Shown here piece after piece: positions 12,768-45,103 of a stretch of DNA of 64,000 bases. Positions within the stretch are counted from its first letter, which is position 1. Each line of letters opens with the position of its first letter. Position numbers and translations under genes: made by a program. The stretch comes from Pseudorhodoplanes sinuspersici. Its GTDB lineage: Bacteria; Pseudomonadota; Alphaproteobacteria; Rhizobiales; Xanthobacteraceae. Under the pieces are notes generated by a model. It was not told the DNA's origin, searched no databases, and was given only the letters and a program-made list of their open reading frames with translations. Location: the NCBI RefSeq assembly GCF_002119765.1, contig NZ_CP021112.1:372001-436000 (forward strand), written 5' to 3'.

Positions 12768-13283
12768 ATGTCTGACACCACGACCCCGCCCAAAGATCCG
12801 TTCGGCATTCGCGACGGCGAAATCGCAACCGATCTGCCATCCACATTCGATGCCGGCCTCTATTTCATCGGCCGCATTCATACGCCGTGGACGCGGCGCG
12901 AGGACTGCCCGAAGAATGCCGGCGAATCCGACGCCGTCTGCACCATCGAACTCGATCCACGCTATGCCAGGGCGCTCGACAAGGTCGAGACCTGTTCGCA
13001 CCTGATCGTGCTGTACTGGATGGATCGGGCCCGCCGCGATCTCGTGGTGCAGACCCCGCGCCATTATGGCGAGGGGCGCGGCACCTTTGCGTTGCGCTCG
13101 CCCGTGCGGCCCAACCCGATCGCGCTCAGCGTGGTGAAGCTGCTCAAAGTCGAGCGTACCACGCTGTCGATTCAGAATATCGATTGCCTCGACAACACGC
13201 CGGTGCTCGATATCAAGCCCTATTTCGCATCCGTCGATTCAAAGCCTGACGCCACCGTCGGCTGGCATCGCGACAAAGATTGA
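12768..13283 (+). CDS. trmO: tRNA (N6-threonylcarbamoyladenosine37-N6)-methyltransferase TrmO
   Basis: A 171-residue cytoplasmic protein of the TsaA/YaeB family, which methylates t6A37 in tRNA-Thr using SAM. Diagnostic segments are IGRIHTPWTRREDCPKNA, HLIVLYWMDRARRD and the RSPVRPNPIALSVVKL loop, then LDNTPVLDIKPYF. The ATG at 12768 (MSDTTTPPKD) is chosen because upstream in-frame codons give an unrelated basic and hydrophobic extension. The next gene starts 41 nt after the stop. Confidence 0.9.
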   Translation: MSDTTTPPKDPFGIRDGEIATDLPSTFDAGLYFIGRIHTPWTRREDCPKNAGESDAVCTIELDPRYARALDKVETCSHLIVLYWMDRARRDLVVQTPRHYGEGRGTFALRSPVRPNPIALSVVKLLKVERTTLSIQNIDCLDNTPVLDIKPYFASVDSKPDATVGWHRDKD

Positions 13284-15037: not shown

Positions 15038-15235
15038 TCGGCTCCCTCTCCCTTTGGGAGAGGGTCGGGGTGAGGGGTTAAACTCTCACTATGGAAATAA
15101 CCCCTCACCCGATTTGCTTCGCTACACTCGCAAATCGACCTCTCCCAGCGCAAGTCGGATGTTTCCGACTTGCGCCGTTTCAATACTGACCGAAGTCGGG
15201 AACACCCGACTTCGGTCGGGAGAGGTGAAGAAAAG
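15038..15235. repeat. Composite palindromic repeat region
   Basis: About 200 nt of nested inverted repeats: CCCTCTCCC with GGGAGAGGG, AAGTCGGA with TCCGACTT around TGTT, and ACCGAAGTCGGG with CCCGACTTCGGT. The AAGTCGGATGTTTCCGAC core recurs in inverted orientation near 37.4 kb. It lies between convergent ilvD and binding-protein genes. Confidence 0.7.
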
Positions 15236-25396: not shown

Positions 25397-25474
25397 TCTT
25401 CACCCGCTCATTCCCGCGAAGGCGGGAATCCAGCGTGAAACCCTGGGCCCCCGCCTGCGCGGGGACGAGCGGAA
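25397..25474. repeat. Palindromic repeat inside the thi operon
   Basis: ATTCCCGCGAAGGCGGGAAT is a perfect hairpin, followed by CCCCCGCCTGCGCGGGGACGAG. The same consensus (CCCGC...GCGGGGACGAGCGG) occurs near 36.5 kb and partly near 28.9 kb. It occupies most of the thiS-thiG gap. Confidence 0.75.
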
Positions 25475-25498: not shown

Positions 25499-26267
25499 AT
25501 GCTGACCCTCTACGGCAAAACCTTCTCCTCTCGCCTCCTGATCGGCACGGCGCTCTATCCCTCGCCCGCGATCATGCAAGAGGCGATCCGCGCCTCGGGC
25601 GCGCAGATTGCCACTGTCGCCCTGCGCCGCGAAACCGCGGGCGGCAAATCCGGCAACAACTTCTGGTCGCTGATCCGCGAACTCGAGGTCGCCGTGCTGC
25701 CGAACACCGCCGGTTGCCGCTCGGTGCGCGAAGCCGTCACCACCGCGCAGATGGCGCGCGAATTGTTCGGCACATCGTGGATCAAGCTGGAAGTCATCGC
25801 CGACGACGAAACGCTGCAGCCCGATGTCGTCGGACTGGTCGAAGCTGCAAACATTCTCGTTAAGGATGGCTTCGAGGTCTTCCCCTACACGACCGAGGAT
25901 CTTGGCGTCGCGCAGCGCCTGGTCGATGCCGGCTGCCGCGTGGTGATGCCATGGGCGGCGCCGATCGGCAGCGCCCGCGGGCTGATCAATCGCGACGCGC
26001 TGAAGCTCATGCGGGCACGGCTGCCCGACATCACGCTCGTTGTCGATGCCGGGCTCGGCGCGCCGTCGCATGCCGCCGATGCGATGGAGCTTGGCTATGA
26101 CGCCGTGCTGCTCAACACCGCCGTCGCGAAAGCGGCCGATCCGGTCAACATGGCGAGCGCGTTCAAACTCGGCGTCGAAAGCGGCCGCATCGCCTATGAA
26201 GCGGGCCTGATGGGCGCGCGCGATTTCGCCTCTCCATCCACTCCTGTCATCGGGACCCCGTTCTGGC

Positions 26268-26281
<14 letters not shown>
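25499..26281 (+). CDS. thiG: Thiazole synthase ThiG
   Basis: A 260-residue TIM barrel that forms the thiazole phosphate from deoxyxylulose phosphate, iminoglycine and ThiS thiocarboxylate. Visible hallmarks are [23 protein letters not shown], the active-site lysine in [24 protein letters not shown] and [19 protein letters not shown]. The gene overlaps thiE by 14 nt. Confidence 0.96.
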
Positions 26282-28861
<2,580 letters not shown>

Positions 28862-28869
28862 GCCACTCC

Positions 28870-28945
28870 GTCGTCCCCGCGAAAGCGGGGACCTAGACAC
28901 GCATGGTGGGCTAAGGCGCGTAGCGCCAAGCCCACCATTTTCTTT
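28870..28945 (+). terminator. Repeat-derived terminator after thiC
   Basis: GTCCCCGCGAAAGCGGGGAC forms one hairpin. Then ATGGTGGGCT (28903-28912) pairs with AGCCCACCAT (28929-28938) around an inner GGCGC/GCGCC, followed by TTTTCTTT. The second structure is a good intrinsic terminator built from a widespread intergenic repeat. Confidence 0.75.
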
Positions 28946-34370: not shown

Positions 34371-34441
34371 TTTATAAGCGGTAGCGCGACTTTATAAGCG
34401 TTAGCGCGACGCATCGCATGCTATCCGGGCGCGATAGCATG
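34371..34441. repeat. Tandem 20-bp repeat followed by an inverted repeat
   Basis: TTTATAAGCGGTAGCGCGAC (34371-34390) is repeated at 34391-34410 with one change. Next comes CATGCTATC (34417-34425), a 7-nt spacer and its exact complement GATAGCATG (34433-34441). The block lies immediately upstream of the conserved two-block promoter element. Confidence 0.75.
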
Positions 34442-34445
34442 ATAT

Positions 34446-34519
34446 GTTCTCGTTTGTTCTCGAAGAACGAATCGCGTCCCTTGTTTTTCGTCGATTGCGA
34501 ATCTTAAGAAAGTGCTGCG
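34446..34519 (+). promoter_or_regulatory. Two-block conserved promoter-like element, copy 1 (cupin gene)
   Basis: Block A (34446-34475) holds two GTTC repeats and the dyad GTTCTCGAAGAAC. Block B (34498-34519) contains CGAATCTTAAG. Both blocks and the 22-nt spacing between them match a second copy at 45030-45103 on the minus strand. Block B ends 40 nt before the cupin ATG. Confidence 0.6.
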
Positions 34520-34559: not shown

Positions 34560-35024
34560 ATGGTTGATCGTTTCCTAATCGCCGCGTCCGCGGCGCTTGC
34601 GTTTGTGTTCGTTCCACATGCCGTCATCGCGCAGGATGCGCAGCCCGCAGTCAAGACAGAAGGCGGCACGGAGACGAAGGGTTATCCCGCCGTGCCGCTG
34701 CTCTCGACCGGCACCACAGTTGTCGGCGAAACGATCCACTATCCATCCGGCACCGCGCATGTGACGGCCTCGATCGTCACGCTCGCGCCCGGCGCGCGCA
34801 CGCTCGTTCACAAACACGGCGTGCCGATGTTCGCCTATATCCTTGAAGGCGAGATCACCGTCGATTACGGCGCCAAAGGCAAGCGCACCTATCGCCAGGG
34901 CGACGCACTGATGGAAGCGATGAACGTCGCGCATTTCGGCGAGAATACGGGCACGCAACCGATGCGCCTGATCGCCGTCTATATGGGCGCGGACAACGCC
35001 AAGGATGTCATTCCGGTGAAGTAG
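34560..35024 (+). CDS. Secreted cupin-domain protein
   Basis: A 154-residue exported protein. A signal peptide (about 1-25, AVIAQ) precedes a cupin barrel: GARTLVHKHGVPMFAYILEG gives motif 1 with His and Glu ligands, and the second motif region is EAMNVAHFGEN. Metal binding in the periplasm is likely. Substrate or enzymatic activity is unknown. ATG 34560 follows GAGGAAC, and a conserved promoter-like element lies upstream. Confidence 0.82.
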   Translation: MVDRFLIAASAALAFVFVPHAVIAQDAQPAVKTEGGTETKGYPAVPLLSTGTTVVGETIHYPSGTAHVTASIVTLAPGARTLVHKHGVPMFAYILEGEITVDYGAKGKRTYRQGDALMEAMNVAHFGENTGTQPMRLIAVYMGADNAKDVIPVK

Positions 35025-36419: not shown

Positions 36420-36552
36420 CAGCCGCCGCTCATTCCCGCCAACGGGCCGCGCTCGCGCGCGCCCGATAACAAGCTCTGGCGGGAATCCAGAATGCATCCG
36501 AACGAACAGTGCTCGTGGCTCTGGATCCCCGCCTTCGCGGGGACGAGCGGTT
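36420..36552. repeat. Palindromic repeat, second copy of the thi-operon family
   Basis: TCATTCCCGCC and GGCGGGAATCCAG flank an inner region, followed by CTGGATCCCCGCC and GCGGGGACGAGCGG. The right-hand part matches the repeat between thiS and thiG. Confidence 0.65.
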
Positions 36553-37361: not shown

Positions 37362-37562
37362 CCCTCCCACTGAAGTCGCATGTTTGCGACTTCAGTCCAT
37401 GCGAGGTCCCAGGTCGGAAACATCCGACTTGGGCTGGGGGAGGGTCGGCGCGTATCGAACGCAGGTGAGATACGAGCCGGGGTGGGGTGAGTTTTGAAAG
37501 CAAGTCACCCCACCCCGCTGCTCGCTTCGCTCACAGCGACCCTCCCCCTCCAGGGGAGGGTA
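37362..37562. repeat. Composite palindromic repeat region
   Basis: TGAAGTCGCA/TGCGACTTCA and AGGTCGGA/TCCGACTTG hairpins are followed by GGGGTGGGGTGA/TCACCCCACCCC and CCCTCCCCTCCAGGGGAGGG. The GTCGGAAACATCCGACTT core is the reverse complement of the one near 15.15 kb, so this is the same family in the other orientation. Confidence 0.7.
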
Positions 37563-44210: not shown

Positions 44211-44948
44211 TCATTTGCCATTCGCATTAGGGCTTTCGATCTGGCCACGGCTTTGCAGCCAGGTGGCGAGCAACCAGCAGCCCATCGCCCATGCTGCGCC
44301 GGCGCACCAACCGGCAAGCACGTCGGTCGGCCAATGCACTCCGAGATAGAGCCGGCTGAGGCCGACCAGAATCGTGAGGAAAATCGCGAGCGACAGCAGA
44401 TAGGCTTTCAACCGCCTGCGGCCTTGAATACGCGTCAACAACGCGCCGAGTGTGAGAAATGTCACCGCCGACAGCATGGCATGGCCACTGGGAAAACTCA
44501 TTGTTTTCACGTCGACGAGATGCGCCACCAACTCCGGCCGCGGCCGCGCAAAAACATGTTTCAGCAATTCGCTGAGAATACCGCCTCCGGCAATCGCAAG
44601 GAAAACAAATGCCGCGGCAGCCCGTTTTCCGTCGATCAGAAGATAGATAATGACGCTCAGCGTCACGATTGTGAGCACCGAGAAACTGCCGAGGCTGGTG
44701 ATATCGCGAACGGCACCTTCGAGCCAATCGGGGCCGATCGGGTCGGCAAGATCGTTCGGATTGCGCAACATGCGCAGCACGCGTTCATCGAAAGAACGCG
44801 TATCGCCGTCGAGCACTTCACCGGCTAATTTGCCGAAGCCGAACAGCAGCGCCGCAATAACTGCAAGGCTCGCATAGGGCACGAGTTCTTCGAGCGTGCG
44901 CCCGCGAATGGAAGACCACCAGATGGCGATACGGGAATTCACATTCAT
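44211..44948 (-). CDS. PAP2-family phosphatase
   Basis: A 245-residue integral membrane phosphatase. The three PAP2 motifs are present: KHVFARPRPE, SFPSGHAML and SRLYLGVHWPTD. Members dephosphorylate lipid phosphates such as undecaprenyl pyrophosphate or phosphatidic acid. The start may be ATG 44948 (MNVNSRIAIWW) or 45011. The conserved two-block promoter element at 45030-45103 lies directly upstream, and its position would leave only an 18-nt leader for the 45011 start. Confidence 0.9.
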   Translation of the reverse strand: MNVNSRIAIWWSSIRGRTLEELVPYASLAVIAALLFGFGKLAGEVLDGDTRSFDERVLRMLRNPNDLADPIGPDWLEGAVRDITSLGSFSVLTIVTLSVIIYLLIDGKRAAAAFVFLAIAGGGILSELLKHVFARPRPELVAHLVDVKTMSFPSGHAMLSAVTFLTLGALLTRIQGRRRLKAYLLSLAIFLTILVGLSRLYLGVHWPTDVLAGWCAGAAWAMGCWLLATWLQSRGQIESPNANGK

Positions 44949-45029: not shown

Positions 45030-45103
45030 CGCAACACTCTCTTAAGATTCGAATCGTGACGCAAAACACGTCTGCGATTCGTTCTCCGCGAACAAACGTG
45101 AAC
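45030..45103 (-). promoter_or_regulatory. Two-block conserved promoter-like element, copy 2 (PAP2 gene)
   Basis: Read on the minus strand, block A (45103-45074) matches the cupin-gene copy at 27 of 30 positions and block B (45051-45030) at 20 of 22. The intervening 22 nt are not conserved but have identical length. It points towards the PAP2 gene. Confidence 0.6.

Follow-up and report, generated by a model that had tools for sequence, protein, structure and literature searches.

The window analysed here is the whole 64,000-nucleotide stretch of Pseudorhodoplanes sinuspersici DNA at positions 372,001 to 436,000 of NZ_CP021112.1, read on the forward strand. Two copies of a two-block element lie in it, one upstream of a gene for an exported cupin-domain protein and the other upstream of a PAP2-family phosphatase gene. 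The relevant features, in window coordinates, are as follows; dyads and block B motifs were read from the sequence, and bit scores and E values of the copies refer to the home genome.

34446..34519, + strand: element copy 1 (block A, spacer, and block B), 50.9 bits, E 4.2e-13
34453..34471, + strand: core dyad of copy 1, TTTGTTC-TCGAA-GAACGAA, followed by TC
34504..34508, + strand: TTAAG in block B of copy 1 (family motif TTAA[C/G]-N6-TT)
34560..35024, + strand: exported cupin-domain protein gene (Pfam Cupin_2, 7e-14; start from reading frame and gene caller)
44211..44948, - strand: PAP2-family phosphatase gene (Pfam PAP2, 5e-26; start from gene caller)
45030..45103, - strand: element copy 2, 58.8 bits, E 1.4e-15
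45041..45045, - strand: TTAAG in block B of copy 2
45078..45096, - strand: core dyad of copy 2, TTTGTTC-GCGGA-GAACGAA

The ATG of the cupin gene lies 41 bp past the end of copy 1, and the PAP2 gene starts approximately 80 bp past copy 2, each on the same strand as its element. Realignment of the two copies confirmed the coordinates and identities given by the sequence-only reading, namely 27 of 30 positions in block A, 6 of 22 in the spacer, and 20 of 22 in block B. When up to three mismatches were allowed, two matches to each block were found, compared with 0.01 (block A) and 0.46 (block B) expected per shuffled window. At the same threshold, no third block A match was detected beyond copies 1 and 2 in the 5.97-Mb single-contig home genome; the profile described below recovered four element copies there, at 406446 (+), 417031 (-), 896656 (-), and 5147503 (-). 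The dyad that had been noticed in block A is real, but it extends over 19 bp (TTTGTTC-N5-GAACGAA), and the GTTC direct repeat is present as GTTC-N6-GTTC, although only the home genus typically shows this arrangement. The spacer had been regarded as free sequence. Its identity is indeed low, but TGTTTTT-CGT--CGATT matches between the copies once a 2-nt gap is allowed, a score reached in 25 of 2000 shuffles, and the spacer of relatives is weakly constrained as well (TTTT[CG]CG in the home genus, AAAATCGGCGCG in Bradyrhizobium). A strong hairpin, CATGCTATC...GATAGCATG, occupies window positions 34417-34441 directly 5' of copy 1 and is likely the terminator of the DUF2188 gene.

A profile based on sequence only (model R1) was built from 29 diverse element instances. 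At E<=1e-3, it matched 140 of the 392 family genomes, representing 19 of 47 genera, with 1-8 copies and usually 1-5 copies per genome. The scan of relatives with a gapped motif of both blocks, which the sequence-only reading had proposed, was also run; the gapped two-block pattern matched 40 of 392 family genomes, compared with 0 for the reversed-pattern control. The element is degenerate and approximately 85 bp long, with a 19-bp dyad core, TTYGTTC-N5-GAACGAA(TC), and the motif TTAA[C/G]-N6-TT about 32 bp further on. The right-hand arm of the dyad consensus is extended (TTYGTTC-N5-GAACGAATC(G)), and TTAA[C/G]-N6-T[TG] then follows at a nearly fixed distance. Information in the alignment was maximal at the dyad and at the TTAA[C/G] motif: GTTC-N5-GAAC was kept in essentially all aligned relatives, and both A residues of TTAA were invariant among the 29 aligned sequences. 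Genus g25 is Bradyrhizobium: its version of the element matched 81 named contigs, all of them from Bradyrhizobium or Bradyrhizobiaceae. With the home-type pattern, no match was obtained among named genomes in a first scan. Alignment of five Bradyrhizobium loci revealed two elements of approximately 75 bp as conserved islands, with the DNA between and after them diverging in both sequence and length. The loci are syntenic and common to many species. Outside the family, mainly the dyad persists; most of the genomes checked in genus g81 of family f35 have a single dyad of the CGATTCGTTC-N5-GAACGAATCG type, extra half-sites, and TTAACC further on. A literature search with the letters of the dyad returned unrelated matches only. 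Two protein contacts, as originally suggested, would best account for a two-block DNA site that is conserved with nearly fixed spacing in many species, and both window segments belong to a family of non-coding DNA sites not described before, which are probably landing pads for a protein. The densest array seen was that of genome G010, with at least four tandem elements within 500 bp (L037, 8733-9232). On a 209-kb contig of another genome (G084:C4, L139), equal-scoring copies were located at 12981 and 201496, approximately 190 kb apart; this contig also has a dif-like sequence with 2 mismatches and is possibly a secondary replicon.

The gene context of 123 element instances, including repeated loci and related genomes, was classified with a simple dicodon gene caller. 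The sequence-only reading had named random positions within genes as an outcome that would count against it; none of the 123 instances overlapped a gene. It had also described the element as promoter-like, and this was not supported: in most instances no gene start is faced, and elements are over-represented in convergent gaps. The gene adjoining the block B side was encoded on the opposite strand in 87 of the 123 instances. Convergent gaps held 38 (31%), compared with 11% of gaps by number or 15% by length in the Bradyrhizobium baseline, whereas divergent gaps were depleted among element-holding gaps (18% versus a Bradyrhizobium baseline of 30-38%). The adjacent genes encode aminotransferase, glutamine synthetase, NfeD, SIR2, and beta-lactamase-like proteins, among others, and are functionally unrelated, which speaks against the envelope regulon that had been imagined to link the cupin and PAP2 genes. 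Neither a shared function nor a candidate binder was found among the scanned neighbour genes. Several home-genus copies lie directly 5' of a start codon (L040, L141, and the second copy of L036), and the two window copies, which precede the cupin and PAP2 genes, represent a minority arrangement. A local regulatory role at these two genes is possible. A tiny conserved protein (MTVEKQREVIRLWNELRKLEGPAAEELRIQILECFSEKG...) adjoins terminus elements in Bradyrhizobium (L034, 7548-7685 and upstream), with the SOS-box-like GAACAAAATGAGAAC 5' of it.

Between a promoter and a polar nucleoprotein site that acts on the chromosome, we prefer the latter. The leading explanation, to which we assign a probability of about 0.45, is a composite double-stranded-DNA recognition site that serves the chromosome and not a particular gene. 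The conserved sequence, its two-block build, its location between genes and away from promoter positions, and the layout in Bradyrhizobium are direct observations; we infer a binding protein, putatively dimeric, that would occupy the dyad TTYGTTC-N5-GAACGAA, and a function exerted on the chromosome. A second contact would be made at TTAA[C/G]-N6-TT, approximately four helical turns off, by the same protein or by a partner that is possibly CtrA-like. The two contacts, on the dyad and at TTAA, would give the complex a direction.

The chief alternative is a drifting operator of the cell cycle, with TTAAC serving as a CtrA half-site. More generally, the element could be the operator or promoter of a small, fast-drifting regulon, possibly linked to the cell cycle, whose targets or short ncRNAs vary by clade; a regulator would sit on the dyad, and TTAAC would function either as a promoter box or as one half of a CtrA site. 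The window copies, 41 and approximately 80 bp 5' of gene starts on the same strand, agree with this, as do the home-genus copies directly 5' of start codons and the TTAACC[AT] that lies 3' of the dyad in family f35. However, placement upstream of starts in a fixed orientation was found only for the window copies and a few home-genus copies. The predominance of an opposite-strand gene on the block B side, the enrichment of convergent gaps, the divergence between species of the sequence 3' of the element, and the lack of a common function among neighbour genes all argue against it, and no sigma-70-like hexamers were found inside the element in copy 1 or copy 2. We regard an operator as a tenable but doubtful alternative. 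If the element is regulatory after all, it would point to an unrecognised regulator conserved across a large family of soil bacteria.

The likeness to the CtrA box (TTAA-N7-TTAA or TTAACCAT) lies in the element's TTAA[C/G] with TT 6 bases on and, in f35, in TTAACCAT near or after the dyad; TTAACCAT is the known CtrA half-site. The first half of the box is conserved in the element, but the second half is rarely TTAA, with T[TG] at the right spacing instead, and known CtrA sites lack the element's dyad. The cell-cycle link raised by the sequence-only reading may be real, given the resemblance of TTAAC to a CtrA half-site and the terminus layout in Bradyrhizobium described below, but any such link is not through the cupin and PAP2 genes. 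GANTC/CcrM sites are present in both blocks, but because GANTC is missing from block B and from some of the dyads in relatives, these sites were rejected as what defines the element. The GTTC repeats of block A resemble the alphaproteobacterial LexA box (GTTC-N7-GTTC), whereas the conserved feature of the element is the inverted GTTC-N5-GAAC. A LexA/SOS box was rejected: N6 separates the repeats in copy 1 and in copy 2 of the window, and the direct repeat is absent at that spacing in Bradyrhizobium. A separate GAACAAAATGAGAAC box (GAAC-N7-GAAC) was observed near a Bradyrhizobium locus.

Positions relative to dnaA first suggested a terminus bias and polarity in Bradyrhizobium. Using the alphaproteobacterial dif sequence of PMC2731167, dif was located in 47 of 47 genomes; a search with the gammaproteobacterial-type consensus gave no matches. 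The dif positions agreed with the strand switches of KOPS observed in 20-kb samples and, for B. japonicum USDA 110, with the published dif (PMC2731167). In 35 complete Bradyrhizobium genomes, 97 of 97 copies scoring >=35 bits faced away from dif, although these copies derive from only about 4-6 ancestral loci and the effective sample is small. Almost all of them (99%) lay <=510 kb from dif, where approximately 13% would be expected. In dif coordinates, the loci fall at approximately -70 to -190 kb, -290 to -380 kb, and +360 to +510 kb, plus a few others. In USDA 110, a pair of sites lies at 4.8677-4.8681 Mb (4867676-4868125, minus strand). Eleven Bradyrhizobium genomes had sites on both sides of dif in opposite orientation, and many had sites on a single side. 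A change of side was accompanied by a change of strand in G330, in G351, and at the third locus of G304. The away-from-dif rule was broken by two matches of low score (23 bits) in G228 and G361. The 97 copies cannot be counted as 97 independent trials, because dif-spanning inversions keep the orientation automatically and the ancestral loci are few. In addition, most genes around the terminus run in the direction of replication and the elements are antiparallel to them, which would produce the same polarity. The home genome (dif at 4.786 Mb) showed the Bradyrhizobium polarity in one of its four copies, and three copies lay 1.6-2.1 Mb from dif; an origin or terminus role there was not supported, given this distance. 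Among other non-Bradyrhizobium genomes, G038 and G094 fitted the polarity rule and G081 and G124 broke it. The single dyad of genus g81 in f35 lay roughly opposite dif in two genomes. One Bradyrhizobium genome (G318, 6.73 Mb) has dif only 1.1 Mb from dnaA, so that its chromosome is either strongly lopsided or misassembled; its elements track dif and not the distance from dnaA.

Under the favoured chromosomal-site reading, the oppositely oriented, dif-flanking sites of Bradyrhizobium would be polar marks of the terminus region, acting either as replication-fork barriers with a function like that of Tus-Ter and RTP or in terminus handling, as sites of loading or organisation. The four home-genome copies are mostly far from the terminus and without this polarity, and under this reading two of them merely happen to precede the cupin and PAP2 genes. 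A bolder and rather speculative extension is that Bradyrhizobium possesses a third, independently evolved polar replication-terminus system, whose composite sites, bound by a protein, would hold or order forks in the terminus or polarise its segregation, with the home-genome copies having been relocated or repurposed. A site of strict direction flanking dif in 35 complete Bradyrhizobium genomes, including that of USDA 110, provides a short, searchable entry point for experiments.

The narrower claim that the element is a true polar replication-fork trap of Alphaproteobacteria, an analogue of Tus-Ter and RTP-Ter of independent origin in which the asymmetric second block sets the blocking direction, is a still less probable one. 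Like Tus-Ter of Escherichia coli and RTP-Ter of Bacillus subtilis, the element occurs in Bradyrhizobium as a few short asymmetric sites that flank dif with opposite orientation on the two sides, as seen from the uniform orientation of the strong Bradyrhizobium copies, their proximity to dif, and the 11 two-sided genomes. RTP sites are also two-part, with half-sites A and B, and their direction depends on which half-site is met first (PMC10331603). However, the element has no sequence relation to either system, its dyad-plus-TTAA layout spans approximately 85 bp, and polarity was shown only for Bradyrhizobium, the home genome lacking it. The polarity is absent in G081 and G124 as well, many genomes have one-sided sites, and a terminator-protein gene was not found among the scanned neighbours. 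In PMC10331603, which cites Galli 2019, fork traps are described as characterising a small group of bacteria. A fork trap, or a polar site that organises the terminus, would give the layout seen in Bradyrhizobium, a likeness short of established membership in a fork-trap family. Terminus-proximal binding sites are also found in the matS/MatP system of enterobacteria and the ZapT system of Caulobacter, and matS has a palindromic core. There are many copies of matS. The matS site is a 13-mer spread over an 800-kb stretch (PMC7858052), and ZapT sites have no consensus motif and lie mostly within reading frames (PMC7188993), whereas the element has few sites, which are polar and lie between genes.

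A repetitive or selfish palindromic element, either REP-like or a miniature transposon remnant, is very improbable. The core is palindromic, and the copies are intergenic, several of them clustered, and often located at gene 3' ends, as are the Br-REP elements of Bradyrhizobium (PMC5082802). Br-REP1 and Br-REP2 are likewise intergenic palindromes that often lie near convergent gene ends, but they occupy approximately 50-200 intergenic sites and have other consensus sequences (PMC5082802). Many dispersed, non-syntenic copies, as expected of a mobile repeat, were not found; the 1-8 copies per genome are at syntenic loci common to many species, and no plasmid or phage sequence matched the element, so the transposable repeat that the sequence-only reading had considered as a refutation was not borne out. 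Moreover, the asymmetric two-block layout is kept while the surroundings diverge, and orientation and position are persistently conserved. The least credible alternative is a small structured RNA gene or the leader of one, which would fit the hairpin potential of GTTCTCGAAGAAC and a deeply conserved intergenic sequence, but RNAalifold found 0 compensatory pairs in 137 aligned sequences, conservation stops at block B, and there was no Rfam match; with neither compensatory pairs nor an Rfam family, the constraint therefore acts on DNA. A conserved small RNA or ORF 3' of the element was rejected by the five-locus Bradyrhizobium alignment.

Other structured sequences were observed in the window and in a relative. 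Two TPP riboswitches are present in G038 (L036, 1813-1936 and 3227-3334), one of them just 5' of thiC, and may be compared with window positions 26000-27000; no TPP riboswitch was detected at the Rfam threshold in the home stretch 398000-417900, which includes the thiC of the window. A REP-like hairpin repeat, CCCCGC-N-TTCGCGGGGA, has four copies in the window (25411-25465, 28874-28891, and 36526-36543). In addition, a 34-nt inverted pair with 91% identity (CCTCTCCCAGCGCAAGTCGGATGTTTCCGACTTG) lies at 15139-15172 and 37410-37443; each arm is itself palindromic, and the pair is probably another dispersed repeat.
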